Shown piece by piece: positions 35,021 through 55,895 of a stretch of DNA of 55,895 bases. The stretch spans positions 1 to 55,895 of the forward strand of contig JAAZXR010000029.1 of NCBI GenBank assembly GCA_014240065.1. Reading direction: 5' to 3'. The notes beneath the pieces are model-generated. The model saw only the letters and a list, made by a program, of their open reading frames with translations. It was not told where the DNA came from and did no database searches. The DNA is from Myxococcales bacterium (GTDB taxonomy: Bacteria > Myxococcota_A > Polyangia > Nannocystales > Nannocystaceae). How positions within the stretch are numbered: the stretch's first letter is position 1; the number at the start of each line of letters is the position of its first letter. The translations under genes and the position numbers were made by a program.

Positions 35021-38000
35021 TCATCGGCTCGCCCACGCGCGAAACGCCTGGAACGCGAAGGCGGCCCCCGTGTCTCCGGGCGCCGGCAGGTCCATTCGCA
35101 CCCGCGCGTAGTCCTGGAGGTCCTGTCGCGATGCGCCGGTCATCCGCAAGGCCGCCAGCCCTGTCACCGCCACAAAGTGCGCGGGGAGCCACGCCTCGGG
35201 ATCGTCGACCTCTCGTCGCGCGAGCTTCGTGAGGCGGGGGCCATCCTCTTCCACGAGCGCGTCGAGGAGCTCGATGGCGCGGACTCCCGCCGCTGGCGCG
35301 GATGACTCCCGTCGTCGCACGCGCTCACGGACCTTCGCCCACCACGCGCTCGATCCAAGCTCCACATAGGGGGCGACCAGCTGGAACACGCCGTAGGTCG
35401 CGCGCACCCACTCGGCCCATGACACGACCCCGCGGGTGAGGTTCAGATCTGCGGTGCGCCACACCTTCATGACCGAGAGGTCGATCTCGGGCGGCGCGGG
35501 AGCGGCCGGGTCGTTGAAGTGATCGAGGAGCCTCGCCGCGCGCTCGGGCGCCAAGAAGACCGTGGGGCTGCGCAGGTCACTCGGTCCATGGGACCGATAC
35601 GGCGCGCGCTCGATCCCGCCGATCCAGCGATGCATCGCGAGAGGAGACTCCCTCAGCTGCTCGAGGAACGACGCGTAGAGCTTCATAAATCGCGCTCGCT
35701 CGGCGCCGGTGTCGAGGATCGGGCGCGCGTCGGTGTTCGGCGTCACGTCCTTCACGAGCGGGTGCAGCATGTCGCGATTCGCCGTGATCAAGGCGTCGAT
35801 GTCTCCAACGTCGCGGACACCGATCAACTCCAGCGTCCGCTGCATGCCCTCCCACCGCAAGGGCGCGCCCTCGAGCGTCAGCGGGGAGCCGTCGTGGGAG
35901 GCCATGATGAGCCAGTCGAGCGCCCCTACTTGCACGATCAGGTACTGCTCGAACTCATCGTCGATCGCCGCGAGCACCGACAGCATGAGCTCATCCCCCA
36001 GCTCGTAGCCTTGGATCCACTGGCACAGCACCCCATCCTCGCGGAGGTAGCGCTTGACCTCCCGATAAAAGTCCACTGTGAAGAGGCTCGACACCCCGCT
36101 CACCCACGGGTTGGTGGGTTCCGAGATGATCACGTCGTAGCGGGACTGACCCGCCGAGAAGTAAGCCTTCGCGTCATCGAAGACTACGTTGCTCCTCGGA
36201 TCCGCGTGCGCTCGCGCGTTCTCCGGGAGGAACATACGCGACGCCTCCACCATCTTCGCCTCGATCTCCACAGTGTCGAGACGTTCAAGCGTTGGGCTGC
36301 CCAAGAGCACGTGAGCCGTCACGCCGGATCCGAAGCCGATGAGCGCCACGTTTGTGGCCTCGGGACGGGCCATCAGCGGTACTATTCCCACCAGGAACTG
36401 GTTCGGCTCGTCGCCCCCTATCTTGGGACCACGCGCCGGCGCCCTCCCCTCGGGGAAGCGGTCGAGGACGACCGTGGCGTCGGGCTTCCCGTTCGTATAG
36501 ACCACCCGGCGGCGTCCGTCCGCCGCGTCTTCCGTCAAGATCACCGTCGCTGTGCGGCCGTCCTCATAATACAAGACCTCCGAGTCGGCGGGCAGGTGGC
36601 GGCGACCGTTACGAAACACCGCCGCGGCCAGGACCGCGGGGTCGACCGCATAGACGAAGGTGCCGAAGACGACGGTGGTCACCGCCGTCACCTGGGCCAA
36701 GCGCACGGCCCGCGCGCGCGTCCGCTCTTCGACCACGCCGCGGAGCCTCGCGAGGATCCAAACTCCGAGGATCATGTCGACGCTCGCGCCGAGGACCAAG
36801 GTCATTCGCAAGCCGATCGCAGGGAGCAGCACAGTGCCAGCGAGGACGGCGCCGAGGATCGCGCCGAGCGTGTTCACGGCGTAGACACGACCGACGATGG
36901 ACTCTCGCGCGCCGCGGCGGAGCGCGAGGTGGGTCACCAGCGGCAAGGTCATCCCCGCGCAGAAGGTCGCCGGCAACATGATCAACAGGCAGATCAGGTA
37001 GCGCAGGGCGTTGAACGCGATCCATCCCCCCTCCGTCCGCAGCCCCCACTCAGATTCGAGGAGCGCCCCGAGCAGCTGCACCGCCAGCTGATAGGCCGGG
37101 ATCGTCACCACGGCAGAGAACCCCATCACCACCTGCACCATCGCGAGCACGAAGGCGGGGCGCTTGAATCGATCGATGCGACGCCGAACGTAGCCGCTCC
37201 CGAGGGCGAGCCCCAGCACGAAGGCCGACAACATCACCTCGAAAGAGTGCGTGGCGCTCCCGATCACCATGGAGAGCAGGCGGATCCAGGCGATCTCGTA
37301 GATGAATGAAGACAGCCCAGTCCCGAACGCGACGCAGAGCAACAGCGCGACCCACGGCTGAAGATCGGACGGCGGAGAGGTTGGCGTCGAGCGGGAATCA
37401 GGGGCGGTCGCCTCCGCGACTCGGGGGATCAGCGCCGTGGTCGGCGCCCGCTCAAGCAGGGCGAGCCCCATGATCACGAGGTTCAACACCCCGGCCACCA
37501 CCAGCGCCCCCGGCAAGCCGACCCAGGGCACCAACACGAAGCCCGAGAGCATCGCCCCCAACGAGGCGCCGAGGCTGTTGGAGAAATACAGGACGCCCAA
37601 CACGTGGCCGCTGTCTTTTGGCCGGCGGCGGAGCACCCCTACGCTCATCAGCGGGAACGTCATCCCGAGCGCGACGCACGGGGGGAGGATCAACGCCGCC
37701 GCCAACAGCCACTTCACCAGCGTGACGCTCGCGCCTCCGCCCACCGCGGGGAACACCACGTCGTACGCGAGCCGCATGCACAGCGCGTAGAGGGTCGGGA
37801 ACGCGAGCGCGTAGAGGCCGACCGCCCCCTCGAGCATCCCGTACACCACCACGGGGCGCCGCAGCTTCGCGACCCACCGACCCGCGAGCCACGCGCCCAC
37901 CGACATCCCGCCCATGAACAACGCGAGCACCAGCACCTGCGCCGTCGCGGCGCTCCCCACGAACAGGCGAATGTAGCGGGACCAGATCGACTCGTAGACC

Positions 38001-38077
38001 AGGCCGCAGATCCCCGAGAAAAAGAAAATGGTGTAGAGCCATCGCGGCGCGAGGCGGTTGGGGCGGTCAGCGGCCAT
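35021..38077 (-). CDS. MFS-like / spermidine-synthase-like fusion protein
   Basis: A 1018-residue fusion. The first 550 residues are polytopic (IFFFSGICGLVYESIWSRYI at the N-terminus, then many hydrophobic segments in two repeat halves, the second starting FGTGLSSFIYEIAWIRLLSM). Residues about 560-850 are a polyamine-aminopropyltransferase-like methyltransferase fold: nucleotide loop LIGFGSGVTAHVLLG, acidic strand TVEIEAKMVEASRM, then DDAKAY and SEPTNPWVSG. True spermidine synthases have an Asp where SEP is seen here, so polyamine transfer is not certain. A C-terminal helical region of about 170 residues follows. Such membrane fusions are common in Myxococcota, and their substrates are unknown. 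The ATG at 38077 is chosen at the start of the membrane domain. Confidence 0.88.
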   Translation of the reverse strand: MAADRPNRLAPRWLYTIFFFSGICGLVYESIWSRYIRLFVGSAATAQVLVLALFMGGMSVGAWLAGRWVAKLRRPVVVYGMLEGAVGLYALAFPTLYALCMRLAYDVVFPAVGGGASVTLVKWLLAAALILPPCVALGMTFPLMSVGVLRRRPKDSGHVLGVLYFSNSLGASLGAMLSGFVLVPWVGLPGALVVAGVLNLVIMGLALLERAPTTALIPRVAEATAPDSRSTPTSPPSDLQPWVALLLCVAFGTGLSSFIYEIAWIRLLSMVIGSATHSFEVMLSAFVLGLALGSGYVRRRIDRFKRPAFVLAMVQVVMGFSAVVTIPAYQLAVQLLGALLESEWGLRTEGGWIAFNALRYLICLLIMLPATFCAGMTLPLVTHLALRRGARESIVGRVYAVNTLGAILGAVLAGTVLLPAIGLRMTLVLGASVDMILGVWILARLRGVVEERTRARAVRLAQVTAVTTVVFGTFVYAVDPAVLAAAVFRNGRRHLPADSEVLYYEDGRTATVILTEDAADGRRRVVYTNGKPDATVVLDRFPEGRAPARGPKIGGDEPNQFLVGIVPLMARPEATNVALIGFGSGVTAHVLLGSPTLERLDTVEIEAKMVEASRMFLPENARAHADPRSNVVFDDAKAYFSAGQSRYDVIISEPTNPWVSGVSSLFTVDFYREVKRYLREDGVLCQWIQGYELGDELMLSVLAAIDDEFEQYLIVQVGALDWLIMASHDGSPLTLEGAPLRWEGMQRTLELIGVRDVGDIDALITANRDMLHPLVKDVTPNTDARPILDTGAERARFMKLYASFLEQLRESPLAMHRWIGGIERAPYRSHGPSDLRSPTVFLAPERAARLLDHFNDPAAPAPPEIDLSVMKVWRTADLNLTRGVVSWAEWVRATYGVFQLVAPYVELGSSAWWAKVRERVRRRESSAPAAGVRAIELLDALVEEDGPRLTKLARREVDDPEAWLPAHFVAVTGLAALRMTGASRQDLQDYARVRMDLPAPGDTGAAFAFQAFRAWASR

Positions 38078-38206
38078 GTGCGGCCACGCTACCCCAGACT
38101 CGCCCACCTCCACCAAGAACCGGCGCGAGCGCGCCGCCGCGTGACCGCGCCGCGCTGCCCGAGGCACGCCGAAGCCCCACGGCCAACACGCGGTCGAAAA
38201 ACGCGA

Positions 38207-38212
38207 TAAATT
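38207..38212 (+). promoter_or_regulatory. -10-like box of the hydroxyacid dehydrogenase gene
   Basis: TAAATT (within GATAAATT), six bases before the ATG at 38219. No good -35 box is seen. The 141-base gap to the divergent fusion gene holds nothing else recognisable. Confidence 0.4.
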
Positions 38213-38218
38213 GAGCGC

Positions 38219-39172
38219 ATGTCGGCCCCCTCGCTCCCTCTGGTCGCCGTCGCTCCCGAGATCCCGGACGACTGGACGAGTCGACTCGCCCCTCACGCGC
38301 GGGTGGTCGCGCTGTCGAGCGAGGCGGCGGCCAGTGACGCCGACATCGAGGGGGTGCTCACGACCCTCACGACCCGGGTCGACGACGCGATGTTGTCTCG
38401 CTTCCCCAACCTGCGCGTCGTGAGCAATATGGCGGTCGGCGTGGACAATATCGACGTCTCCGCGTGCGCGCGCCGAGAGGTGCGCGTAGGCAACACCCCC
38501 GGCGTCCTCACAGACGCCACGGCCGACATCGCCATGACGCTCATCTTGTGTGTGACGCGGCGAGCGTTCGTCGCCACTCGCGACGCTCGTGAGGGTCGAT
38601 GGGGTCCGTGGAGTCCCACCGGCTGGCTCGGTTCTTCCCTTCGCAAAAAGCGCCTCGGTGTGGTGGGGCTCGGGGCGATCGGGGCCGCGACAGCCTCACG
38701 CGCCAAATCGTTCGGGATGGAGATCTGTTACAGCGGCCCCTCGCGCAAAGCGCGGGCAGAGGAGGAGCTCAGGGCCACGCGGCTGCCACTCGAAGAGCTG
38801 CTCACGAGCGCCGACGTCATCTCGCTGCACTGCCCCCTCGTCGATCAGACCCGACACCTCATCGATTCCATCGCGCTCCGTGCGATGAAGCCGACCGCCG
38901 CGTTGATCAACACGGCGCGCGGGGACGTGGTGGACCAAATCGCGCTGGAGAGGGCGCTCGACGAGGGATGGATCGCCGGCGCCGGGCTCGACGTCACGAC
39001 CCCCGAGCCGCTCCCTCCGACACACCCCCTCTACCGGCGCGACAATTGCCTCATCACGCCACACATCGGGAGCGCGACCATCGAGACTCGGCGGGCCATG
39101 GCTTCGCTCGCCTGTGACAACCTCATCGCGGCGCTCGACGGCGCCCCCCTCCCGCACGAGGTGGGGAGCTAG
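38219..39172 (+). CDS. D-2-hydroxyacid dehydrogenase, glyoxylate/hydroxypyruvate reductase type
   Basis: A 317-residue NAD(P)-dependent reductase. The GRHPR-like signature (MAVGVDNIDVSAC, NTPGVLTDATADIAMTLIL) is clear. The Rossmann motif is GLGAIG at 150-155. The catalytic triad is Arg234 (NTARGD), Glu263 (TPEP) and His282 (PHIGSAT). It would reduce glyoxylate to glycolate or hydroxypyruvate to D-glycerate. With the glycerate 2-kinase at 33706 it could feed glycerate into glycolysis. It is probably monocistronic and convergent with parE at 33 bases. Confidence 0.94.
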   Translation: MSAPSLPLVAVAPEIPDDWTSRLAPHARVVALSSEAAASDADIEGVLTTLTTRVDDAMLSRFPNLRVVSNMAVGVDNIDVSACARREVRVGNTPGVLTDATADIAMTLILCVTRRAFVATRDAREGRWGPWSPTGWLGSSLRKKRLGVVGLGAIGAATASRAKSFGMEICYSGPSRKARAEEELRATRLPLEELLTSADVISLHCPLVDQTRHLIDSIALRAMKPTAALINTARGDVVDQIALERALDEGWIAGAGLDVTTPEPLPPTHPLYRRDNCLITPHIGSATIETRRAMASLACDNLIAALDGAPLPHEVGS

Positions 39173-39205: not shown

Positions 39206-41143
39206 CTAGACGTCGAGCTCTTCGACGTCGCCCGCCTGCGACATGATGAACTCGTAGCGGCTGCTGGCGTCCTTGCCCATGAGCGCGCTGATCGTCCGAT
39301 CGGTGGCGAGCTCGTCGCCGATCTCCACCTGAATGAGCTGCCGCTTCTTGGGGTCGAGCGTGGTGTCTTTCAGGGTCTTTGGCATCATCTCGCCGAGCCC
39401 CTTGAAACGCTGAATCTCGTATTTTTGGGTCTTCAGCTGCTTCACCTGCCGCTGCAGCTGCGCGTCGTCTGAAATCCACGTGGTCTCCTTGCCCACGTCG
39501 AGTCGATACAGCGGCGGCTGGGCCAGGTACACGTGCCCGCGCCGGATGAGCTCGGGGATGTAGCGGTAGAAGAAGGTCAGCAGCAAGGTCGCGATGTGAT
39601 GGCCATCCGAGTCGGCGTCCATCAACAAGATGATCTTGTGATAGCGCAGACGATTAATCGAGAAGTCTTTCCCGATCCCGCACCCGATGGCCTTGATGAC
39701 GTTCCCCAGCTCCTCGTTCCCGAGCACCTTGGTCAACGACGCCTGCTCCGCGTTCAACACCTTCCCGCGGAGCGGCAATATCGCCTGCGTGTTCCGGTCG
39801 CGGCCCATCTTCGCCGAGCCGCCCGCCGAATCCCCCTCGACGATGAACAGCTCACACTTTTTTGGATCTCGATTCCCGCAATCCGCGAGCTTGCCCGGCA
39901 AGCCGAGGCGGGCCGTCCCCGCAGATTTTCGAGACACAGAGGCGCTCGCCGCCCGCGAGGCGGCCCGGGCTCGCGCCGCCGAGATCACCCGCGCGGCGAC
40001 GGACTCCGCCGTGCTCCGGTTCTCGTTGAGCCACTGCTCAAGCGCTGGTCGGATGCTCCCTTCCACCGCGGACACGACCTCCGGGTTGTTGAGCCGGTTC
40101 TTGGTTTGGGACTGGAATTGCGGCTCGAGCACGTACACGCTCAGCAGCGCCACCATCCCCTCTCGAATGTCATCGAGGGTGACCGTGACCCCCTTTGGCT
40201 CGAGCTTGTGCGCCTGCATATACCCACGCACCGCCTTGCCGAGCGCGTTACGCAGCCCCTGCTCGTGGGTGCCTCCGTCCGGTGTCGGGACGCCATTCAC
40301 GAACGAGAAACAGCCGTTTTCGGTGGACTCCGTCCACGCGAACGCGATCTCTAGCCGCGTCGAGTCCGTGCGCTCGAGGTAGAAATTGTTGGCGTGGATC
40401 GCCGCCTTGCCCCGCACCTGGATGAGCTTGCCGAGGTACTCCGAGATGCCCTCCTTGTGGAAGAATGTCTCTGTCTTGCGAGTCGCTTCGTCGTGAAACT
40501 CGATCTTGAGCCCCTTGTGCAGGTAGCTCTTGGACTCCAGCCGCTCCCGCAGCACGATGGGGTCGAGGTGCATCTTGCCACCGAACATCTCCGGGTCCGG
40601 GCGAAGGTAGACCTCTGTGCCCGTGCTCCGCTTCGCGCCGATCTTCTTGAGCTTCGCGACGACGACCCCGCGCTCGAAGACGACCTCGTGGAGCGCGCCT
40701 CCCCGCGACACCCTCACCTCGAGGCGCTCGGCGAGGGCGTTCGCGACCGCGGCGCCGACCCCGTGCAGACCGCCGGAGTGCTTGTAGCTTGATCCGTCAA
40801 ATTTCCCCCCGGCGCCGAGTTTTGTGAACACCGCGACGACCGCGGGGATCTTCAATTGTGGGTGCTTGTCGATGGGGATGCCGCGCCCGTTGTCTTCGAT
40901 GGTGATCCCGCGACGATCTGCGTCGATGGTGACCTTGATCTGGGAGGCGTGGCCGTTGATGACCTCGTCCACTGAGTTGTCGAGGACCTCCCACACCAGA
41001 TGATGAAGGCCGTCCTTATTGAGCCCGCCGATATACATCCCAGGCCGCTTGCGGACGTGGTCGACGCCCTCGACGATCTGAATCGAATCGGCGTCGTACC
41101 CGTTCGACGCTGCGCCCTTTTTCTTCGCCTGTTTCTTCGCCAT
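39206..41143 (-). CDS. parE: DNA topoisomerase IV subunit B (ParE/GyrB family)
   Basis: A 645-residue type IIA topoisomerase ATPase subunit. GHKL ATPase: VWEVLDNSVDEVINGHA, DNGRGIP, GLHGVGAAVANAL. TOPRIM: FIVEGDSAGGSAKMGR and LLMDADSDGHH. The C-terminus has the family QRFKGLGEMMP. It is about the length of ParE and lacks the extra insert of long proteobacterial GyrB. It starts six bases after the parC stop. Assignment to topo IV rather than gyrase rests on the size and on pairing with parC, and is not certain. Confidence 0.93.
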   Translation of the reverse strand: MAKKQAKKKGAASNGYDADSIQIVEGVDHVRKRPGMYIGGLNKDGLHHLVWEVLDNSVDEVINGHASQIKVTIDADRRGITIEDNGRGIPIDKHPQLKIPAVVAVFTKLGAGGKFDGSSYKHSGGLHGVGAAVANALAERLEVRVSRGGALHEVVFERGVVVAKLKKIGAKRSTGTEVYLRPDPEMFGGKMHLDPIVLRERLESKSYLHKGLKIEFHDEATRKTETFFHKEGISEYLGKLIQVRGKAAIHANNFYLERTDSTRLEIAFAWTESTENGCFSFVNGVPTPDGGTHEQGLRNALGKAVRGYMQAHKLEPKGVTVTLDDIREGMVALLSVYVLEPQFQSQTKNRLNNPEVVSAVEGSIRPALEQWLNENRSTAESVAARVISAARARAASRAASASVSRKSAGTARLGLPGKLADCGNRDPKKCELFIVEGDSAGGSAKMGRDRNTQAILPLRGKVLNAEQASLTKVLGNEELGNVIKAIGCGIGKDFSINRLRYHKIILLMDADSDGHHIATLLLTFFYRYIPELIRRGHVYLAQPPLYRLDVGKETTWISDDAQLQRQVKQLKTQKYEIQRFKGLGEMMPKTLKDTTLDPKKRQLIQVEIGDELATDRTISALMGKDASSRYEFIMSQAGDVEELDV

Positions 41144-41149
41144 CGCTGC

Positions 41150-43600
41150 TTATCTCTTCTTTCGACCGCTCTTCGGCTTGGTCGAAGGCTCCTCTTCAAA
41201 CGCCGGGGGCGTCGGCGCTGGATAGGTCAAGGCCTTCACCTTCCCCCGACTCATGAGCGGCCGGCCCTTCCCGCCGCGCCCGGTCGCCTGTCTCGATCCC
41301 GACTTCAGCTTCTGCACCCCGCCCGTGGTCTTGGTGAAGCTCACGTTCATATGCCCGGGGAAGGCGCCCACGAGCTCGTCATCTTTATCGAGCTTGATCA
41401 AGGTGACCCCCTTGCCGGCGCCCGCGAGCAGGTTCACCTCCATCACATTCGCGATGAGGAATCGACTCGACTTGGAGAGCGCGCACACCTCGTCCTCTGC
41501 GTAGACCTGGAACACCGAGAGGAACTCATCGCCGCTCTTGAGTCGACCGAACAGCCGCCCCCGTGAGGTGCTCGGCTCCTTGTGGGGCCAGAGCGTGAAA
41601 CGCAGGGCCATGCCTCCTCGGGAGACCGCGATGAAGTGTGGATACGGCTCCTCATACTCCGCTCCTAGCTCGGGTTTTTCGTGGGCGAACTCCTCCATGA
41701 AGCGAGGATCGGTGGTCGTCGCCCCCACCACTCGCTCCCCGTCTTTAAACTTAAACAGCTGCTGCACTGGCACGCCGTGGCCCGCCGTCGCCGGGATCTC
41801 GTTGATCCGGCACACGTACGCGCTCCCGAGGCTCGAGAAGAACACCACGCACTCCCGCGTGCTCCCCGCGAGCAACGAGGAGACGGCGTCCCCCTCACGA
41901 ATTCGAGTGGTGTCCGGATTGATCGAGCGCTGCCGCTTCACCCACCCGTCCCGCGTGACGAGGACGACCGCGTCTTCGTCAGGGATGAAGCTCTCCGCCG
42001 AGAAATCCTCGGTGATGTCCTCATCGCTGATCCGCGTGCGCCGCTTGTCGCCGAATTCTGCCTCGACCGCCTGAAGCTCCGACTTCACGGCCGCCCACTG
42101 CTTCGCCTCGCTCTTCAAGATCGCCCGAATCTTCTTGGCTTGCTTGCGCTTGTCCGCGAGCTCTTCACGGATCTTGAGGATCTCGAGCTTCGCGATCCTG
42201 TACAGCCGGGTGTCCAAGATCGCGTCCGCTTGGACCTCGGACAGCCCGAAGGTCTTTTGGAGTTTCTTCCCGGCGTCGGCCCGGCCCTCGGACCGCCGGA
42301 TGATCCGGATCGCGCGATCGAGGTCATCGAAGATGATCTCGAACCCTTCCAGGATATGGATCCGCGCCTCAAGCTTGCGCAGATCGTGCTCGTAGCGGCG
42401 GCGCACCGTGAGGAGGCGAAAGTCCAAGAAGTGGCGCAGGATCGCCTTCAGGCCGAGCCTCGCGGGCGCGCCCACCTCGGGGTTATCCGTGGGAACGAGA
42501 CAGGTGAAATCGATCTTCACCGTGGTCTGGAGCTTGGTGTGCTTAAACAGGTACGCCATCACCAGCTCGGGATCGATCTCTCCCTTGCCGGCGAGCTCGC
42601 ACTCGACGCGGATATCGGTGGTGCTGAGGTCTTGGACCCCCACCAACACCGGCAGTTTCTTCTTGAGGATGATGTTCCCGATCTCCTCGACCAGGCTGCT
42701 CTTCTCGACCGCGTAGGGGACCTCGGTGATGACCAGCTTCTGGGTTCCCTTCTTGTCGACCTCGACCTTCCAGCTCCCTCGCAGCTTGAAAGAGCCCTTG
42801 CCGTCCTCGTAGGCCTTCCGGATCTCTGTCTTCGACGCCACCAGCTGACCGCCCGTGGGGAAGTCAGGCCCGCGTACGCTCCCCATGAGCTTGGCGACGG
42901 TCAGCTTCGGGTCGTCGATGAGTCGGATGCAAGCCTTCACCACCTCGGAGAGGTTGTGCGGGGGGATGCTCGTCGCCATGCCCACGGCGATCCCGGTCCC
43001 GCCATTCACGAGAATCTGGGGGAAGCGCGCCGGGAGCACGATGGGCTCTTTGCCCTGTCCGTCGTAGGTCGGGCGAAAATCGACGGTGTCGGAGCGGATC
43101 TCGGAGATCAGCTCGCTCGCGATCTTGGTGAGGCGAGCCTCCGTATATCGATACGCCGCGGCGGAATCACCGTCGATGGAGCCGAAGTTCCCTTGGCCGT
43201 CGACGAGCGGCGCTCGCATGGCGAAGTCTTGGGCCAGCCGCACCATCGCGTCATAGACCGCGGTGTCTCCGTGGGGATGATATTTTCCGATGACGTCGCC
43301 GACCACCTTCGCGCTCTTGCGATGGCGGGAATCGTAGGTCAGCCGCAGCTCCTCGAACATGGTGTAGATGATGCGTCGATGGACCGGCTTGAGGCCGTCT
43401 CGCACGTCGGGAATCGCCCGCGAGGTGATGACGCTCAGCGCATAGTTGAGGTACTTGCGCCGCGCGTGGTCGGCGAGGTCGCCGCGAACGATGCCGCCAG
43501 AGCCTCCCGCGCCACCTTCCGGCGTCGTGCTGCGGCGCGCGGACGCGACGTCCGTCGGCGTCGCGCCGACTGGTTCGATCAAGGAGAGCTTGAGTTGCAT
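41150..43600 (-). CDS. parC: DNA topoisomerase IV subunit A (ParC/GyrA family)
   Basis: An 816-residue DNA-cleaving subunit. The WHD has the quinolone region [20 protein letters not shown], with Thr113 at the GyrA Ser83 position and Asp117 at the Asp87 position. The active-site tyrosine is Tyr152 (AYRYTEARL). A coiled-coil tower and a six-bladed-type C-terminal domain follow ([34 protein letters not shown]). There is no canonical GyrA box between blades, but [11 protein letters not shown] near the end is reminiscent. A Lys/Arg-rich tail ends the protein. The ATG ([11 protein letters not shown]) is preferred over upstream starts because the promoter lies between. It forms an operon with parE. 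Confidence 0.93.
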
Positions 43601-43661
43601 GGCTTTCGTCCACCCAGAGCGGGATGAGGCGTAGTCCGCGCGACCCCTGGGCTCGTGGCTC

Positions 43662-43690
43662 ACGCTACCCCTCAACGGCTATTTCCTCAA
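43662..43690 (-). promoter_or_regulatory. promoter of parC-parE
   Basis: On the minus strand TTGAGG, a 17-base spacer and TAGCGT. Transcription would start near 43655 and give a leader of about 55 bases. The rest of the 191-base gap between parC and the mscS stop shows no gene. Confidence 0.55.
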
Positions 43691-43791: not shown

Positions 43792-44562
43792 TCAGGGGCC
43801 TGCAGCAGGATTTTCGGAGCCGTCAGATCCCTCGGCGAGCGCCCGACGGAGCGCCTGCTCGACCTCAATTTCCCGGGCCGGGTCGATCAGTTGAACGGTC
43901 ACCGAGAGGCGCTGCGGACCACTCAAGGTGATCCCCGGCCGGTGTCGAATGGAGGCCCAGTGGTTGAGGAAGACGGTCCGCTGCACCAGCGCCATCGCCT
44001 GCCGCGGCGTGAGCCCCGGAGGGATCTCGGCCTGCAAGATCACCGCGCGGCCCCCCTCTTCGCTCCGGCTGCGATGCACCGACGCTCGCATAAGGCGGCT
44101 GTAGGGGACGACCACCTCCTCCGCCGACGCCGAGTGGATCGAGAATGAGCGCAGCCCCACGCCCGACACCACGCCCGCGGTGCTCTCCACCGCGAGATGA
44201 TCTCCGAGCCTCACGAGCCCGCCCGCGCGACAGATAATCCCCGCGGAGACGTCGCGCACCGCCTGCCAGGAGAGCGCGAAGCCCAGCGCCACCACGCAAA
44301 GCAGCAGCAACGACAGGTACGAGCTCTGGGTGGTGAACACCATGTAGAGGGTGAAGATTGTGAAGGATCCCGCGAACACCACCCCCACGGAAGACAAGCC
44401 TCGGCTCATGCGCGTGGTGCGAAGGATCCTCCCCATGATCACAAACAGCACGTAGAGCCCGAGCCCTACCGCGACCAAGCCCAGCAGCGAGTCTGCGCCG
44501 GCCGCCAGCTCTTCGAGCCACGTGGAGAACTGCTCGCCGGTGGAGGGGACGCCGCTCAGCAC
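43792..44562 (-). CDS. MscS-family mechanosensitive channel
   Basis: A 256-residue small mechanosensitive channel. Three or so hydrophobic segments (LLGLVAVGLGLYVLFVIMG, FAGSFTIFTLYMVF, YLSLLLLCVVALGFALSW) are followed by the MscS pore-lining/beta-domain signature (VRDVSAGIICRAGGLVRLGD, VVSGVGLRSFSIH, VVVPYSRLM). A short cytoplasmic alpha/beta domain ends in a low-complexity tail. It releases solutes when membrane tension rises. The GTG start overlaps the stop of the giant SLC12-ATPase gene by seven bases, so the two are translationally coupled and probably act together in volume or ion control. Confidence 0.92.
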   Translation of the reverse strand: MLSGVPSTGEQFSTWLEELAAGADSLLGLVAVGLGLYVLFVIMGRILRTTRMSRGLSSVGVVFAGSFTIFTLYMVFTTQSSYLSLLLLCVVALGFALSWQAVRDVSAGIICRAGGLVRLGDHLAVESTAGVVSGVGLRSFSIHSASAEEVVVPYSRLMRASVHRSRSEEGGRAVILQAEIPPGLTPRQAMALVQRTVFLNHWASIRHRPGITLSGPQRLSVTVQLIDPAREIEVEQALRRALAEGSDGSENPAAGP

Positions 44563-47500
44563 ACCAACCCCCTCGCGTGCAAGTAGCGCCAGATCGTCAT
44601 GTAGGCGAACTTCGAGACCTCGAAGACCTCGGGGGAGGTCTCCTCCACCAAGCCGGAGCGCACCAACCCGCCGAGCACCTCTTCGACGGCGCGTGGATCC
44701 GCGTCAATGAGGCTCCCGATGCGCGCCTTCGTGAGCGCGCGATGCACCTCGAACGAGACCAGCATCGCCTCCTCCTCGGCCGAGAGCTTGCCGACCAAGG
44801 AGTGAGGGTTGCGCGCCGGAACGGTCAAGGAGAGGGCCTCGCCATCCACTCGGCTGATCGCCGCCACCCACGCGCGCAGCGCCTGCCCGATGTTGCCTCC
44901 GCTCCGCTCCTGAATGAGCGCGAACATCCGCGCCTTCGGCAAGGCTGAGAGCTCGGGGAGCGGCGTGCCGTCCACGTCGAGGGTCAGCCCCGCCGAGAGA
45001 TGCCGCGCCAGGATGATCTCGCTGATCTCGTGCATGCCCACAGGCCTGCAGTCCATGACCGCGAGGGCCCGCGCGCGCAGACCGTACAGATGATCCATCA
45101 GCTCGAGCGCCGAGCGCCCTACCTCGACCACAAACACGAGCCGCCCCGCGTGGGCGTCGAAGGCGTCGAGGAGCCTGTGGATGGCCCCGTCATCACCACC
45201 GAGCCGCGTCCACCACAGCTCAAAGTCCTTGAGCACGAGCGCCGACTGCTCCGGGAGCGCGCGGAGCTGGTCCTCGAGGGTCCCGACGATCCCAGTCTCC
45301 GACTCGAAGACCCGGTCAAGGACCGCCGGATCCGAGCTGCCAGACCGCCGCGGGAAGATGCGGTAGATCTTCCGATTATTGAGCGGCCCCGACGTCATCC
45401 ATTGGACGAACGCCGACTTCCCAGATCCGCGCGTCCCGGTGACCAACAACACCCCAGGAATCCCACGCTTGTGATTCGCGAGCCCTCGCCGCGCCTGGGT
45501 CTGCAGCTCGGGCCTCGCGATCCAGAACGCCTCGTCCGTCGAGCTTTGCCCGATGAACAGCTGCCGGTAGTAGTACGGCAGGGATTTGAGGACCTCCGGG
45601 CGCGGCTGCAACGCCTGGATCCGCGAGAGCACCTCCTCCCGAGACAGCGGCTCCAACGAGGCCGTCCCCCCCACGCTGCGCGCGAAGGACAGCACCGACT
45701 GTCCCCCATAGATCGCCGTGATCGCGCGCTCAGAGACGGTGTTGACGAGCACGTCGATCCGCGCCCTGAGCCCCGTGTACGCCTGCAGACCCTGCGAGCG
45801 GCGCCGGTCTTGAAGCAGCCGACCCGCCTCCCGAATCAGCTCACGCAGCTGGGTCCGCTCCATCGCGCGATCGAGCTCGCCGTCCACTGACGCTCCGAGG
45901 CTCGACGCGAAGTGCTCAAGTTTCTCCACCTCTTCGCCCACCCGGCGCTGGGCTGTTTGGACCACCGGCTCCATGTGCGCGACGAAGGACCCCGCGTCAT
46001 CCCCCTCCTCCGACAAGGTGTCCCACTCCTTGCGATGAAACCGAACCATCCGCACGACGTCGAGGCCGACCGTCCGCCCGCGCTGCTCTTCGGCCAACAT
46101 GGCGCCGCCGAGGAGCCCCTGGAGGCTCGACATGAGCTCGTTTTCGATCAGGTAGCTCACGAGGCGCCGGAGCGGAAGCTCGATGGAATTCACGGACTCT
46201 TCGTTCCCCTCGAGCAGCTTCGAGTAGCTCGCCTCGTCGAGCACGCGCACCGTCTCGGGGAGGTCCTCGAGCACCGAGGGGAGCTCTCGCTGCAGGCTCT
46301 CTACAGACTCGCGCCGCGGGGCTCGGTCGCGATTGCGGAAGTCGAAGCGCCCCTTGAGCTCTGGCTGCTCCTCGTCTCCTAGCGCCTCCGCGAAGGTGTC
46401 GAGGCTCGCTTGAAGTTGGACGAGGTCATCGAGGCGTCCGTTGCGAAGCTCGATATATTTGGACTCCCGAATCCGAAGCACCATCCCGGCGATGCGATGC
46501 TGGACGTCGGCGATGGACAGCCCAAGCTGCGCCTGCTCCACGATCTGTCCGCGGTGCATCACGGACACGACCAGCGCCTCAAGCTCGTCGGCGCCGAGCT
46601 TCTCGAGCACCACCTTGGGGCGACGGTCGCGCCGGGTGAGCCGCGTGACGTCGATCCGCGACAGGTCGTCGGCGAAGGCCTGGGCCACCGTCCGCGCGCC
46701 GGACCAGAGCAGCTCCCTCGTTCGTTGATGGTGTTCGCGATGCCGATGCAGGCACTCCTTGGCCGTGTCGAGCGCCCGCTGCTTCGCCTCGGACACATAC
46801 TCCTCCACGCTCGCGGTCCCCGACAAACCACGCACGAGCGCCATGGAGGTCTGGGCGCTCTGGAGCAGCTGACCGAGCTCGCTGACGATGCTGTGCCCGT
46901 CCGCGCGGATGGTCTGCAGCACCCGCGCGACCACCTCGGTCACGAACCGCTCCCGATGCCAGGCCTGAAGCCGCGCCAGGTCCACCGCGTAGGAGGGCGC
47001 GCCCCGCTGAATCGACCCCAGCAAGCGGCGGCGGCGCTTGAAGCGTCGCGTCCAACGATCGTCCTCGGGATCCGCGGCGAATTCGTCCAACGAGCGCGTC
47101 ACCACCAGCGGCACCCCGAGCTGCACGAGCGCGGGCACCTCCAAGATCTCGCGCAGCCGATTGTCGAGGGTGCTCTCTTGGCGCGGGACCTCATCCTCCC
47201 AAAAGTCGATGAGGAGCTGCTTGGCGGCCTTGAGCAGCGAGCTGTTGGCGCGATTCGTCGCGCGCCTCAGTCGCCGCGCGTGGCTCCCGGTCACGCCTTT
47301 TTCGAGCAGGTTAAAATGCCGCTCCAGGGTCTCGTGTACCCGCTCGATGAGCTCGACCTCTGACTCGTACACCCGCTGAATCGCGCGCTTGTCGAAGGTC
47401 GACACCATCCCCGCCAAGCGCCGGCCGAAGTGGCTCGACGGCGGGTAGATGTCGGGGTGCCGATCGATGTCCAGGTCAAATTCGATCTCCGGCGTGTCTT

Positions 47501-49715
47501 CGGTCGCCGGCATCGCGGTCGCGGTCGTCCCCACGCGACGAACGGTGAGCACCGGCTCGAACGACGAGGCCGCGCGGTAGACGAGGGCGGTCCCCAGCGG
47601 AGCCAAGTCCCTCTCAAGCCGCGCGGAGGCGCCCTCACGAGCCAACCCAGCCCCCATCACCACGAGGTCCGCCCCCTTCGACTGGGCCTCGAGCAGCGCC
47701 GAAAACGACGCCTCCTCGGGTGTCACATTCACCGCCCGGATCGTCGATTCGATCCGCATCTCCGTCACGAGACGACTCGCCCGCGCGAGCAGATGCTCGT
47801 TGTCCGCCACATCCTCCGAGAAAATGAGCACCCGAATCTCCACGCCGGGCCACTCGTTGGAGGAGGTGATGAAACGCAGCAGCGAGAGCGCGAAGGGGAG
47901 GTTGCCGCCCTCGCTCGTCCACCACACGTCGATCCGGCGCCGCGCTCCAAAGCCACGCACCGGGTCGTATCGAAACAACATCAAGCTCAGGTCCTGCTCA
48001 ACGATCGAGCGGAACATCTCTGAGAAGGCCGCGGTCTCGTCGGACGTCGGGCCACCGGCGAGCGGGCGAAAGTCCGACCAGTCGAGCAGCACCGCGTTGG
48101 GTCGCAGCCCTATCACCCCGTGATAGCGGCACATGTTCCGTACGGTCGCCGCGTCTTCGTCACTCGGGAGCACGTGATGGAACATGCCCACCGGCAGCGC
48201 CTCGGTGTCACCGACGGGGGCGCTTCGTTCCTCGTGCTCTTTGAGCTTCGGTGGGACCAGCACGATGTCGGTGAACAGGCCTCGCCCTCGCACCATCGTC
48301 TGCCCAAACTTGAGCAGGTATGGCCGGGTCCCCGTCGTCCGGGCCATGCGACTGAAGGCGAGGATATTGGGCCGCCAGTTCCGCGCTTGAGGCGCCCCTT
48401 GGCTGAGCCGATAGAGCCCCGATCGCACCACCGTCGCCCACACCCCCTCCCACGTGTCACCCGCCTCAAGCCGCAGCTCGCGGCGCTGCAACAGGACGTA
48501 GATGCCGATCAAGATCGCGCCGGACAGCAACATCGCGATGATGTCCAGCTGCACCATCACGACGAAGCTGGTGAGCGCGCCGATCAGGGGAAACGCCCGC
48601 GGGATCTTGAACGTGGGCCGAAAATCTGGGCTCGCCCAGGTCTCGATGGCCGCGATGAGGTTCAAGAACCCGTAGAGCGCCAAGAACACCATCGACACGA
48701 TGCGAGCGATGACGTCCAATTCCGCGATGAGGATCCCGGCCTCACCGATCAAGAAGGCCAACACGAGGGCGTTACGCGGCTCGTTGGTCTTGCCCGTGCC
48801 CTTGGCGAACCACGCGGGCGTGATGCGATCCGCCGACACCGCCTGCAAGATCCTCGGTGCCCCGAGGATCGAGCCAAGCGCTGAGGACAAGGTCGCCCCC
48901 CACACGCCCGCGACCACCAAAATCGGCACGGCCGCGATGGCCACGAGGATGTTGGGGTCTTCGCGGAGGAGCCTGGCGTCGACGCGAACGGCCAAGAACG
49001 CCGCGAGCGCCATATAGACCAGGAATCCAACGATGATCGCCGCCATCGATCCCACAGGAATCGACTTGCGAGCGTCGCGCAAGTCGCCCGACATGTTGAC
49101 GCCGGCCGTGAAGCCCGTCACCGCAGGAAAGAAGATCCCGAACAGGAGAGATGGCTCGATCCCTTCGGCGGGACGCGACCAATGCAGCTGCGCGGGCGCC
49201 TCAGGGCTCCCCGCGAAGATCGAGATGATGCTCAGCCCGATCAGCGCCAAGATCACATACTGGAGTTTGATCGCGAGGGCGGTGCTGATGAAGGTGAGCA
49301 CGGTCAACGCCACCAACGTCGCCGTGCCGCAGATCCGAATGGTCCGGGCGTCCGCGGAGATCTCCAGGTACGACAGCAGGCTCTCCGAAAAGCCGATGAT
49401 GTACAGCGAGATGCTGAACGAGAGCCCCAAGAACAGCGCGATGCCGATGGTCCCACCGAGGGGGAGACCGAGGCTGCGCGAGATGATGTAGTAGGGGCCT
49501 CCCGCCCCCACCGCCTTGTCCGTGGCGATGGAGGAGATGCTCAACCCCGTGCTCACCGAGATCACGTGGGCCACCATGATGATGATCGCCGTGGTCTGCA
49601 GCCCTCCGTTGCCCACCACCCACGGCAAGCGCAGGTACATGATCACCCCGAGGATCGTGAGGATGGACGGCGTGAAGACGCCGCCGAAAGTTCCAAACTT
49701 GCCGTCCTTGGCCAT
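44556..49715 (-). CDS. SLC12-like transporter fused to P-loop ATPase and winged helix
   Basis: A 1719-residue multidomain membrane protein. Residues 1-430 are a twelve-segment transporter of the cation-chloride cotransporter (SLC12/APC) type (TPSILTILGVIMYLRLPWVV, TDKAVGAGGPYYIISRSLG, FFPAVTGFTAGVNMSGDL). Residues 430-740 resemble the cytosolic C-terminal domain of that family with USP-like folds. Residues about 790-1390 are long, charged and helical. Then come a P-loop GTRGSGKS (1427-1434), a Walker B-like SALVLKDFELWW and a STAND/AAA-like lid region. The last 80 residues look like a winged helix (LTKARIGSLIDADPRAVEEV). It may be an ATP-sensing or regulated K/Cl symporter. The ATG at 49715 is chosen; a GTG at 49748 next to TATAGT is the alternative. 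Confidence 0.9.
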   Translation of the reverse strand: MAKDGKFGTFGGVFTPSILTILGVIMYLRLPWVVGNGGLQTTAIIIMVAHVISVSTGLSISSIATDKAVGAGGPYYIISRSLGLPLGGTIGIALFLGLSFSISLYIIGFSESLLSYLEISADARTIRICGTATLVALTVLTFISTALAIKLQYVILALIGLSIISIFAGSPEAPAQLHWSRPAEGIEPSLLFGIFFPAVTGFTAGVNMSGDLRDARKSIPVGSMAAIIVGFLVYMALAAFLAVRVDARLLREDPNILVAIAAVPILVVAGVWGATLSSALGSILGAPRILQAVSADRITPAWFAKGTGKTNEPRNALVLAFLIGEAGILIAELDVIARIVSMVFLALYGFLNLIAAIETWASPDFRPTFKIPRAFPLIGALTSFVVMVQLDIIAMLLSGAILIGIYVLLQRRELRLEAGDTWEGVWATVVRSGLYRLSQGAPQARNWRPNILAFSRMARTTGTRPYLLKFGQTMVRGRGLFTDIVLVPPKLKEHEERSAPVGDTEALPVGMFHHVLPSDEDAATVRNMCRYHGVIGLRPNAVLLDWSDFRPLAGGPTSDETAAFSEMFRSIVEQDLSLMLFRYDPVRGFGARRRIDVWWTSEGGNLPFALSLLRFITSSNEWPGVEIRVLIFSEDVADNEHLLARASRLVTEMRIESTIRAVNVTPEEASFSALLEAQSKGADLVVMGAGLAREGASARLERDLAPLGTALVYRAASSFEPVLTVRRVGTTATAMPATEDTPEIEFDLDIDRHPDIYPPSSHFGRRLAGMVSTFDKRAIQRVYESEVELIERVHETLERHFNLLEKGVTGSHARRLRRATNRANSSLLKAAKQLLIDFWEDEVPRQESTLDNRLREILEVPALVQLGVPLVVTRSLDEFAADPEDDRWTRRFKRRRRLLGSIQRGAPSYAVDLARLQAWHRERFVTEVVARVLQTIRADGHSIVSELGQLLQSAQTSMALVRGLSGTASVEEYVSEAKQRALDTAKECLHRHREHHQRTRELLWSGARTVAQAFADDLSRIDVTRLTRRDRRPKVVLEKLGADELEALVVSVMHRGQIVEQAQLGLSIADVQHRIAGMVLRIRESKYIELRNGRLDDLVQLQASLDTFAEALGDEEQPELKGRFDFRNRDRAPRRESVESLQRELPSVLEDLPETVRVLDEASYSKLLEGNEESVNSIELPLRRLVSYLIENELMSSLQGLLGGAMLAEEQRGRTVGLDVVRMVRFHRKEWDTLSEEGDDAGSFVAHMEPVVQTAQRRVGEEVEKLEHFASSLGASVDGELDRAMERTQLRELIREAGRLLQDRRRSQGLQAYTGLRARIDVLVNTVSERAITAIYGGQSVLSFARSVGGTASLEPLSREEVLSRIQALQPRPEVLKSLPYYYRQLFIGQSSTDEAFWIARPELQTQARRGLANHKRGIPGVLLVTGTRGSGKSAFVQWMTSGPLNNRKIYRIFPRRSGSSDPAVLDRVFESETGIVGTLEDQLRALPEQSALVLKDFELWWTRLGGDDGAIHRLLDAFDAHAGRLVFVVEVGRSALELMDHLYGLRARALAVMDCRPVGMHEISEIILARHLSAGLTLDVDGTPLPELSALPKARMFALIQERSGGNIGQALRAWVAAISRVDGEALSLTVPARNPHSLVGKLSAEEEAMLVSFEVHRALTKARIGSLIDADPRAVEEVLGGLVRSGLVEETSPEVFEVSKFAYMTIWRYLHARGLVC

Positions 49716-53662: not shown

Positions 53663-55895
53663 GTGGCAGAGGACACACCACCGGATTCCTCCAAGACCGA
53701 CGACCCGCAGCCTGCGAGTGAGTCCGACGAGGCCGCCTCCAAGAAGCGGCCGACGTTGCCGCCCGCGCCGGTCGGAAGGTCACCGGGGAAGAAGACCACA
53801 GCGTTCTCCGATTTGATCCTCGGCAGCGGAAAACAAACCTCTAAAACGGACTCTGGGGGCACTAAGAAGCCTCCTGCCGGCAGTTCTGGCGCCACCGCCA
53901 CCGGCTCCAAAACTGAAGGGACCGCGCCCGTGTCCTCGCTCGGTGCAGGGCTTGGCCTCAAGCTCGGGAGCTCGAGCGCCATGAAACGACCGGACATTTC
54001 ACCGGACGGCGACGATTCGAGCGCGTCCATGACGGACCTCAGCTTGACCGAGATGGAGGTCGTCGAACTCGACGAAGACGACCCTACCCAAGCATCCCGA
54101 CCTGCGGCGAGCGGGCCTCCCCAGCGCCGACCACCACCGCGCTCTCAGCGCACCCCCTCGGGAGGCCCGGCGGCCGCCCCCTCGGATGAAGAGCGCCGAG
54201 ACGCTCCCCAAAGCGACCGCGACGCCGACTCGAGCGACGCGCCGACCGATGAACCATCCCCGACCACGGCGGAGGATGCCGAATCACCGCCCCCCGACGG
54301 CGAAATCGACGGCGAAATCGACGACGAAACCGACGGCGAAACCGACGGCGAAACCGACGCCGAAACCGACGCCGAAACCGACGCCGAAACCGACGAGGCG
54401 AGGCTCGCGCGAGCGGCTGGCCTCCTCCCTGAGCAGCCCTCGGATGGGGCCGACAGCGGAGATCGCCCGCAAATCGGTCCCGCCCAATATCCAACAGCGC
54501 ACTGGGCCGGCGAGGTGAATGAACAAGCCGGCGGGGCGGAGGCCACGTGCCGGGTGTTGCACGTCGCGAAGGGAGCGAGGGCGGAACGTGGCGCGCTCGG
54601 CACTTTCAAGGCGGCGACGGGCGAAGCCAACACACAGCTCAGCGACCGCCATTGCGAGCTCCTCGCAGCCTCCATTGACGACGGCGCCGTCCACATCGGC
54701 TCCCGCGGCCACGGACTCCCTTCACTTCGAGAGGCGATGCTCACCGAGCCCCTGGTGCTCGACCGCGCGTGCGGCGTCCTCCGACAAGTCGCGGCCGCAT
54801 GTGCGACGCTGGAGAAACACGGGATTGAACACGGGGCCCTCACGGCCGACGCGGTGCTCCTCGACGCCGATGATCTGATCCACCTGACCGACGTGGGCCT
54901 CGCGGGGCTCGTGGATCTTGAAGACGACGCCTTCGACAATGAGTTCGCGCCACACCTCCCGGAGACGGCTGTGGGTATGCCCGCCGAGCGCGCCGACATC
55001 TACGGCTTTGGGTGCGTGGCGTTCTTCGCCTTGACCGGTCGCCCGCTGTTTCGTGAGGGAGGCACCGCCGACCCCGGGCAACAGCGCAGACGGCACGCGA
55101 TCGAAGAACCGGACCGACTCAAACGCGACGGCCGGCGACTCCACGAGCAGCTCGACACCTTCGTCCAATGCTGCCTCGAAAAGGATCCATCGGACCGCTA
55201 CGAAGACTTCGGAAAGCTCGCCGCCGCCCTCGCACAAGCGCTGACCGCAGCGGGCGTCACCACCGAGTTCGACGAGCTCGGTGTCGAGGCAGGGGGACGG
55301 ACGGTGGACTCCCGCGACGCGCCGAAGACCGCCGGTGCCATCGTCACCCGCAAGTCGAGCTCGGGCGAGGACATGGCGCCCGCCCAGCAGACCTCCATAC
55401 GGGTCGCGGGAGCCTCCATGATCGCTCCGGTCGCAGAGGCGGTCGCGGCCACCTCCCCTGACGTCGCTGCCGGACCGGCGGCGGCGCCCTCACGTGACGA
55501 GAAGGGGCTCGATGAGTTCGAGCTCCAAAAGGCCCACATTGATTGGCCTACCAAGGCTCGCCGCCTGCGCCAGCTCGCAGCGGTCGGCGTGGTCCTCGTC
55601 GTCATCTTGCTGGCGTTGCGCGGACTCAGTGAGTACATGTCTGAGCGGGCCGCGGAGCGCGACGCCGAGGAGCGAGCCGCCCTCGCGCGCGGCGACCTCC
55701 CGGAGCGCTGGAAAGATCCCAACGCGCGCGCGTCCACCACCGGCACCCTCGAAGTGGTGTTTGCGGAGGGGACGCCCGCCCCCACACGAGGCGCCGCGAC
55801 CACGGGGGACACAGAAACGGACGCAGTCGCAGGCACCTCGACCACCGGCGCAGACGACACCACCGGCGCAGACGACACCACCGGCGCAGACGACA
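53663..55895 (+). CDS. membrane-anchored pseudokinase, partial at the right edge
   Basis: 744 codons are visible and the frame is open to the window end. Residues 1-200 are a disordered, charged and Pro-rich tail. Residues about 212-243 are an acidic repeat of (E-T/I-D-G/A)n. A kinase-like fold follows, about 255-530. The C-lobe helix F region (ERADIYGFGCVAFFALTGRP) is clear, but the HRDxKxxN loop reads HGALTADAVLL from His390 and DFG reads DVG at Asp410. No Gly-rich loop or VAIK lysine is evident. So it is probably inactive. A membrane segment (residues about 640-658, AAVGVVLVVILLAL) precedes a Thr/Gly/Asp repeat. A stop codon just upstream makes the GTG the only start. Confidence 0.85.
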   Translation, partial: MAEDTPPDSSKTDDPQPASESDEAASKKRPTLPPAPVGRSPGKKTTAFSDLILGSGKQTSKTDSGGTKKPPAGSSGATATGSKTEGTAPVSSLGAGLGLKLGSSSAMKRPDISPDGDDSSASMTDLSLTEMEVVELDEDDPTQASRPAASGPPQRRPPPRSQRTPSGGPAAAPSDEERRDAPQSDRDADSSDAPTDEPSPTTAEDAESPPPDGEIDGEIDDETDGETDGETDAETDAETDAETDEARLARAAGLLPEQPSDGADSGDRPQIGPAQYPTAHWAGEVNEQAGGAEATCRVLHVAKGARAERGALGTFKAATGEANTQLSDRHCELLAASIDDGAVHIGSRGHGLPSLREAMLTEPLVLDRACGVLRQVAAACATLEKHGIEHGALTADAVLLDADDLIHLTDVGLAGLVDLEDDAFDNEFAPHLPETAVGMPAERADIYGFGCVAFFALTGRPLFREGGTADPGQQRRRHAIEEPDRLKRDGRRLHEQLDTFVQCCLEKDPSDRYEDFGKLAAALAQALTAAGVTTEFDELGVEAGGRTVDSRDAPKTAGAIVTRKSSSGEDMAPAQQTSIRVAGASMIAPVAEAVAATSPDVAAGPAAAPSRDEKGLDEFELQKAHIDWPTKARRLRQLAAVGVVLVVILLALRGLSEYMSERAAERDAEERAALARGDLPERWKDPNARASTTGTLEVVFAEGTPAPTRGAATTGDTETDAVAGTSTTGADDTTGADDTTGADD
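54296..54392 (+). repeat. 12-base coding repeat, acidic
   Basis: Eight near-identical 12-base units (GACGGCGAAATC / GACGCCGAAACC variants) in frame within the pseudokinase. They encode Asp-Gly/Ala-Glu-Thr/Ile tetrads. There are no spacers, so it is not a CRISPR array. Confidence 0.9.
55841..55894 (+). repeat. 18-base coding repeat, Thr-Thr-Gly-Ala-Asp-Asp
   Basis: Three perfect copies of ACCACCGGCGCAGACGAC in frame at the right edge. They encode Thr-Thr-Gly-Ala-Asp-Asp in the extracytoplasmic part of the pseudokinase. The array may continue beyond the window. Confidence 0.9.

Follow-up and report, generated by a model that had tools for sequence, protein, structure and literature searches.

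The window considered here is the whole of a 55,895-nucleotide contig (JAAZXR010000029.1, assembly GCA_014240065.1) of a Myxococcales bacterium placed in the Nannocystaceae. On its reverse strand lies a gene whose predicted protein joins a transporter of the SLC12 type to a cytoplasmic C-terminal domain, a long helical rod, an AAA+ ATPase, and a winged helix. Overlapping the end of this fused gene is a second gene, which codes for a protein resembling the channel MscS. The features of this two-gene locus are collected in the following table.

Features of the fused gene and its overlapping partner, in window coordinates
Feature	Positions	Strand	Evidence
Fused gene, 1719 aa: SLC12-type transporter, C-terminal domain, helical rod, AAA+ ATPase, winged helix	44556..49715	(-)	Single open frame; full-length homologs; monophyletic fused clade
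Transmembrane domain, residues 1-410, APC-fold cation-chloride cotransporter	48486..49715	(-)	Pfam PF00324, E 5.7e-39; KCC/NKCC alignments; conservation
SLC12-type cytoplasmic C-terminal domain, residues ~446-745	47481..48380	(-)	phmmer alignment to KCC4 up to residue 669 and to 6vwa at 446-674
Helical rod, residues ~760-1377: long antiparallel helices, two small beta hairpins	45585..47438	(-)	AlphaFold2; hhalign homology across module classes
AAA+ ATPase, Orc1/Cdc6-STAND type, residues ~1380-1638	44802..45578	(-)	Foldseek to 2qby, 7jgr, 2qen, TnsC
Walker A GTRGSGKS, residues 1427-1434	45414..45437	(-)	Conservation in 27 members
Walker B-like strand ALVLKDFE, residues 1492-1499, then WW (1501-1502)	45219..45242	(-)	Conservation in 27 members
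Winged helix, residues 1640-1719	44559..44798	(-)	AlphaFold2; MarR_2/HTH_20/TrmB matches in some relatives
MscS-like protein, 256 aa: three predicted transmembrane helices, beta domain, alpha/beta domain	43792..44562	(-)	PF00924; MscM/MscS profile; AlphaFold2/Foldseek; adjacency

A fused transporter gene and its MscS-like neighbor

The fused gene is read without a break from an ATG at 49715 to a stop at 44556, and it is present in a single copy in its genome. An upstream GTG could lengthen the frame to 49811, but the ATG was preferred because homologs start at the corresponding MAK..GTFGG. A preliminary description, made from the sequence alone, had proposed a single uninterrupted frame in which a transporter is joined to helices, a Walker A motif, a Walker B-like strand, and a winged-helix tail. 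Analysis of the frame and its domains bears this out, and the domain borders drawn at that stage (residues 430, 790, and 1390) fall near those determined here. The junction is not an artifact of assembly or a frameshift, as many independent genomes carry the fusion at full length, among them those of two cultured strains; homologs checked for encoding as two genes proved to be one gene in many genomes.

The transporter half resembles the cation-chloride cotransporters of animals along most of its length. The match to Pfam AA_permease covers residues 13–410 and lies above the cut-off, and the first matches in the Protein Data Bank are all to KCC, NKCC, or NCC proteins. KCC structures align with residues 2–669, thereby covering both the transmembrane and the C-terminal domains (E ~1e-79), and NKCC1 aligns with residues 6–241 (E ~1e-65); 6vwa is the isolated C-terminal domain of a K+/Cl− cotransporter. 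The Pfam SLC12 model stays below its cut-off (15.3 versus 27), and the best matching model, the NCBI K-Cl cotransporter model TIGR00930, gives 370.7 bits, under its trusted cut-off of 953.4. By this measure, the fused protein is not an equivalog of the eukaryote-type KCC proteins. The remainder of the protein was also considered as an ordinary SLC12 tail without an NTPase fold, and this can be ruled out. The SLC12 C-terminal domain is a normal one that ends near residue 745, and an AAA+ fold lies in the module added behind it.

Five residues at the ion sites are all present in the fused protein. By homology to published KCC and NKCC structures, we take Y105, P197, and T200 to be the K+ site and S277 and S278 to be the Na+ site. 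Each is invariant or almost so among the sampled fused proteins, and 20 unfused SLC12 proteins likewise all have Pro197, Thr200, and the two serines. The alignment with NKCC1 places the serine pair in register. The pair is closer to NKCC than to KCC, and it is therefore reasonable to guess that transport depends on Na+. The protein shares homologous transmembrane and C-terminal domains, as well as the Tyr/Pro/Thr of the K+ site, with the known SLC12 family (KCC1–4, NKCC1/2, and NCC; TC 2.A.30; and prokaryotic cation-chloride cotransporters such as that of Methanosarcina acetivorans), whereas its paired serines are like those of NKCC and NCC and unlike KCC. It differs from all of these in carrying an extra 960-residue module of helices, AAA+ domain, and winged helix, and in having an MscS-like partner gene. 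No described SLC12 protein with such a module or such a partner was found in the open-access literature. That literature agrees with the earlier statement that SLC12 proteins are not known to carry an NTPase; yet the C-terminal domain of human KCC1 binds ATP and ADP (PMC8280820), and thus nucleotide control of an SLC12 protein would not in itself be new.

No curated family spans residues 760–1719. An AlphaFold2 model of this tail, built from 19 relatives (pLDDT, the predicted local distance difference test, 82.7), runs from long antiparallel helices through a P-loop alpha/beta domain to the winged helix, and the paired helices of the rod measure 45–75 residues each. In a Foldseek comparison with solved structures, Orc1/Cdc6 ranked at the top (E 4.6e-6), and the Walker-type ATPase 2qen, TnsC, and RuvB were also returned. 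The good matches were all AAA+ proteins, and among them the rod found no known fold. Within the fused SLC12 proteins, hereafter the SLC12 class, the two halves of the rod weakly match each other (hhalign probability 68%, E 4.9e-5); no such match appears in the other classes described below.

AAA_16 and AAA_22 match all 27 scanned members at E<=1, with the window protein below the cut-off of every Pfam AAA or STAND model. Most matches of relatives to AAA_16, AAA_22, and novel STAND models likewise fall short of the cut-off, and some relatives exceed it for AAA_22, AAA_16, or nSTAND1. The Walker residues are well kept in the SLC12 class: G1427, G1432, and S/T1434 of Walker A occur in 27/27 proteins and K1433 in 26/27, and D1497 and E1499 of Walker B occur in 26/27 and 24/27, respectively. 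W1501 and W1502, just after Walker B, and an Arg-His motif are present in all 27. The ATPase has in common with Orc1/Cdc6, STAND, and TnsC-type proteins, its best solved-structure matches, the P-loop AAA+ fold, the winged helix, Walker A and B, and a conserved lid motif. It departs from them in being placed at the end of a helical rod on a membrane transporter, in lacking a DNA-binding signature, and in its own invariant WW and RH motifs. One relative, L063 (such labels are our own, for loci), was dropped from the collection as a kinase with an AAA domain.

The partner gene begins with a GTG 7 bp inside the fused gene. Its product scores 29.6 bits against the MscS beta-domain family PF00924 (cut-off 20.2) and matches an MscM/MscS profile at E 2.6e-13. 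Its AlphaFold2 model (pLDDT 84.8) finds MscS by Foldseek at E 3.7e-11 with prob 1.00, and global TM-scores of only about 0.3 leave the arrangement of its domains uncertain. By profile, fold, and domain content, the protein resembles the MscS family (MscS, MscM, MscK, and YnaI). Unlike known MscS channels, it is genetically tied to an AAA+ module.

Distribution of the module and its pairing with MscS-like proteins

With each species represented by one genome, a scan for relatives gave 23 loci, most of them with full-length fusions. The holders are metagenome-assembled genomes (MAGs) labeled Myxococcota, Marinimicrobia/Fidelibacterota, Calditrichota, Bacteroidota, Latescibacterota, Gemmatimonadota, and Kapaibacterota, together with the cultured strains Enhygromyxa salina SWB005 and Plesiocystis pacifica SIR-1. 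Further fusions came from Myxococcota genomes and from more Calditrichota and Bacteroidota, giving 27 besides that of the window, from MAGs of about seven phyla and the two cultured myxobacteria. Although many of the holders are MAGs, finding the fusion in cultured strains removes doubts about binning for the main claim. One MAG, at locus L034, is labeled Deltaproteobacteria and carries a fused gene very near that of a Calditrichaceae MAG; its genome was placed in the phylum of that MAG, and the label is probably wrong.

Unfused SLC12 proteins of 730–910 residues are common in the same phylum as the window genome. When the transmembrane parts were placed in one tree with 20 unfused SLC12 rows, the 27 fused rows formed a single clade with 100/100 support. 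For this sample, then, it is simplest to suppose that the fusion arose once, long ago.

The tail is not restricted to SLC12 transporters. What were first seen as weak ATPase matches turned out to include proteins of 1350–1680 residues in which an Na+/H+ exchanger domain of the CPA2 type lies ahead of the tail. PF00999 was above its cut-off in 14/17 of the proteins tested from this CPA2 class, and the other three have many hydrophobic segments and no recognized family. At L055, L144, and L145, the module is joined to many-helix membrane domains without a Pfam match, possibly divergent CPA2 proteins or a further transporter type. A third, free class (970–1080 residues) lacks a transporter and consists of rod, ATPase, and winged helix, and in a fourth class a periplasmic-looking coiled coil and transmembrane helices precede the ATPase. 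A variant at L113, L114, L116, and L117 has a signal-peptide-like start, a coiled coil, several transmembrane helices, and the ATPase, with a canonical-looking MscS gene after it; its N-terminal layout resembles that of MscK and MscM.

Comparison of whole tails by hhalign gave E 3.8e-64 over 945 columns between the SLC12 and CPA2 classes, E 8.5e-54 between the SLC12 and free classes, and E 2.4e-95 between the CPA2 and free classes. From these alignments, the entire tail, including the rod, is homologous across the three classes, and this stretch of 960 residues is a transferable module. In the Bacteroidota phylum group, the ATPase is present in 51/247 (~20%) of the sampled genomes. Two shorter ATPase relatives of 749 residues from Bacteroidota, L152 and L158, have no MscS-like neighbor. 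A parallel in the way of working is provided by KefB and KefC, CPA2 antiporters in which a transporter is likewise followed by a C-terminal nucleotide-binding regulatory part. In KefB and KefC this part is a Rossmann-type RCK (also KTN) domain, whereas here it is an AAA+ module shared with the unrelated SLC12 transporters.

The most consistent companion of the module is the MscS-like gene. A homolog adjoins the module in 71/74 loci with DNA to inspect, of which 65 were found by rule within 400 bp downstream and six by reading the loci by hand (L060, L108, and L110, with an adjacent open reading frame that has a longer N terminus, and L111, L146, and L147, with the gene directly upstream). The three without an adjacent MscS-like gene are L058 and the two shorter relatives L152 and L158, which are distant. 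In the SLC12 class, the gene is adjacent in 27/27 loci besides the window, and no other neighbor of the module recurs comparably in this class; among the unfused SLC12 loci checked for an adjacent MscS-like gene, none had one (0/20). The start of one gene frequently overlaps the stop of the other, as ATGA or TAATG. A distant, transporter-free-looking case from a cultured organism is plasmid pLA3 of Novosphingobium pentaromativorans US6-1, for which RefSeq lists an “AAA family ATPase” and, 2 bp on, a “mechanosensitive ion channel family protein.” The MscS-like protein is therefore a near-universal, obligate-looking partner of the module. A second MscS-like reading frame near the module was also seen on the same strand (L048:14014-14829 and L160:8462-9343) and on the opposite strand (L037:4957-5811, L049:1037-1981, and L054:4907-5812).

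For 68 pairs, the tree of the ATPase was compared with that of its MscS-like partner. Each sorts into the four classes with 3 changes, the fewest possible (shuffled ~33), and the distances in the two correlate at 0.77, as against at most 0.14 in 1000 shuffles. These were quick trees, and support for some classes is only moderate. The pore-lining helix of the partner also differs by class. Partners in the free class retain the canonical Gly/Ala-patterned third transmembrane helix (ASAGIALGFASQD), and this pattern is gone in partners of the SLC12 class, including the window protein, and of the CPA2 class. Partners in the SLC12 class have an invariant Asp shortly ahead of a conserved Gly in this helix.

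A proposed nucleotide-dependent switch and its alternatives

A mechanism that would accommodate these observations is an ATP-dependent switch between an MscS-like subunit in the bilayer and an ion transporter, serving osmotic and ionic homeostasis, and on this proposal we find ourselves evenly divided. The two genes would encode one membrane system, in which a cotransporter with a regulatory module of ~960 residues works in a physical complex with the MscS-like subunit. Control would run from the ATPase, acting as a switch and not as a pump, through the helical rod, which would relay the ATP or ADP state to the SLC12 C-terminal domain, where nucleotide binding by KCC1 offers a precedent. There the relay would open or close coupled transport of K+ and Cl−, probably dependent on Na+. 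The MscS-like subunit would be the partner in the bilayer, either as an input for membrane tension or as an oligomeric base under the module. Elsewhere, the same generic module would control a CPA2 antiporter or an MscS channel alone. With the free module, the channel itself would be the effector; in the fused proteins the transporter would take this role, with the MscS-like protein as sensor, scaffold, or another kind of pore. Hydrolysis may matter in the SLC12 class, which keeps its Walker motifs, and less in the CPA2 class.

The preliminary description had offered an NTP-gated symporter or a membrane-tethered switch of the STAND type. Both the symporter and the switch remain plausible, the latter as a putative reader of ion flux, and the picture is altered by finding the module also on CPA2 transporters or free of any transporter, and nearly always with an MscS-like protein. 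A broader proposal, to which we lean somewhat less, is that these loci are undescribed, widespread machines for ion homeostasis. In each, an AAA+ switch on a rod, nearly always accompanied by an MscS-like subunit, would act on exchangeable effectors (an SLC12 cotransporter or CPA2 antiporter, a membrane protein with a periplasmic coiled coil, or the MscS pore as such), so that ATP state and membrane tension jointly control ion flux. Where a transporter is fused, the MscS-like subunit would be a sensor or scaffold and not a pore.

Several points weigh against a switch of this kind. Adjacency and co-evolution are not by themselves proof of a complex. The distance correlation of 0.77 comes in part from shared species history; shared history alone is insufficient, because two or more classes coexist in several genomes (such as genome G389, with L046, L112, and L116) and each MscS-like protein follows the class of its module and not the genome. 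The predicted template modeling score (pTM) of the tail model, at only 0.51, leaves the arrangement of rod and ATPase uncertain. Walker A and B are often degenerate in the CPA2 class, and thus hydrolysis cannot be required in every class. Finally, the pore helix of the partners in the two transporter classes, SLC12 and CPA2, lacks the canonical Gly/Ala pattern, and these partners may therefore neither form an open pore nor sense tension.

The alternative that survives best, though we consider it unlikely, is that the two products are co-regulated and physically separate. Regulation by the tail would then be confined to the cotransporter that it is attached to. The MscS-like protein would be an independent valve for osmotic release, kept in one operon with the transporter because a cell needs salt uptake and an emergency outlet at the same time. 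That MscS proteins act as such valves, and that overlapping genes permit coupled expression, both fit this arrangement. However, the module retains the MscS-like gene even when it has no transporter, the partners group by module class, unfused SLC12 genes lack an MscS-like neighbor, and partners of the fused classes have a changed pore helix.

It is improbable that the locus encodes a STAND-type switch for defense or cell death, in which the AAA+ module would sense an invader or damage and cause an ion leak through the transporter or the MscS-like protein. STAND proteins are common in bacterial defense, the ATPase resembles STAND and nSTAND families, and several holders are multicellular predators. 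Nevertheless, PADLOC models matched neither the fused protein nor its partner, their only weak match being to the winged helix of a CPA2 relative. Recurrent defense genes were not seen nearby (the neighbors in the window are topoisomerase IV genes), the usual STAND repeat or sensor domain was not found, and the tail of the SLC12 class was not found in phage and plasmid collections. The highly conserved residues of the transport sites favor a working cotransporter. A defense system is thus unsupported by PADLOC, by neighborhood, and by searches of mobile elements.

Slightly less probable still is a membrane-tethered transcription regulator, in which the transporter would sense ions and the C-terminal winged helix would bind DNA. 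The winged helix is there, and in some relatives it matches models of the MarR, TrmB, or ArsR type, but its recognition-helix segment is not basic: the mean net charge over 27 proteins is about 0, and that of the whole winged helix is +1.3. This charge test gave no support to DNA binding, no gene arrangement typical of a regulator and its target was seen, and winged helices behind AAA+ and STAND domains often serve the ATPase cycle. Although Walker A and B are kept in the SLC12 class, an ATP-driven pump, with the AAA+ domain energizing the cotransporter and so turning a secondary into a primary transporter, is very improbable, given that AAA+ domains of the Orc1/Cdc6-STAND type are, to our knowledge, switches or loaders and not pumps, that the same tail sits on CPA2 transporters with Walker motifs that are often degenerate, and that the free tail has no transporter to drive.

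Window context and broader meaning

Directly downstream from the MscS-like gene, on the same strand, are genes for the A and B subunits of a topoisomerase IV or gyrase-type enzyme (39206-43675, reverse strand), which are not recurrent neighbors at other loci. Beyond them lies an open reading frame of 1091 residues (35021-38296, reverse strand) with an MFS-like membrane part followed by a spermine/spermidine synthase domain; a relative of it occurs near the fused gene at L032. A short tandem DNA repeat of low complexity occupies positions 54084-54999, with frames that read RRRFRRRF.. or SVSASVSAS...

Each component of the locus is of a known kind, and what is new is their combination, the modularity of the tail, and the pairing with MscS-like proteins. 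Searches of 5.39 million open-access papers for an SLC12-ATPase fusion, an MscS-ATPase pair, and bacterial SLC12 proteins returned no report of either combination; subscription journals were mostly outside these searches, and an earlier description is possible. Cell volume and chloride in animals are governed by SLC12 transporters, which are also drug targets, and their use by bacteria has hardly been described. A bacterial SLC12 protein hard-wired to an AAA+ ATPase and paired with an MscS-type protein makes direct nucleotide control of an SLC12 transporter, and possibly control by tension, testable in a single operon. Since this module is found not only on unrelated transporters but also by itself, next to an MscS channel of normal appearance, there is reason to suspect that a dedicated ATPase partner exists for some channels of the MscS family.

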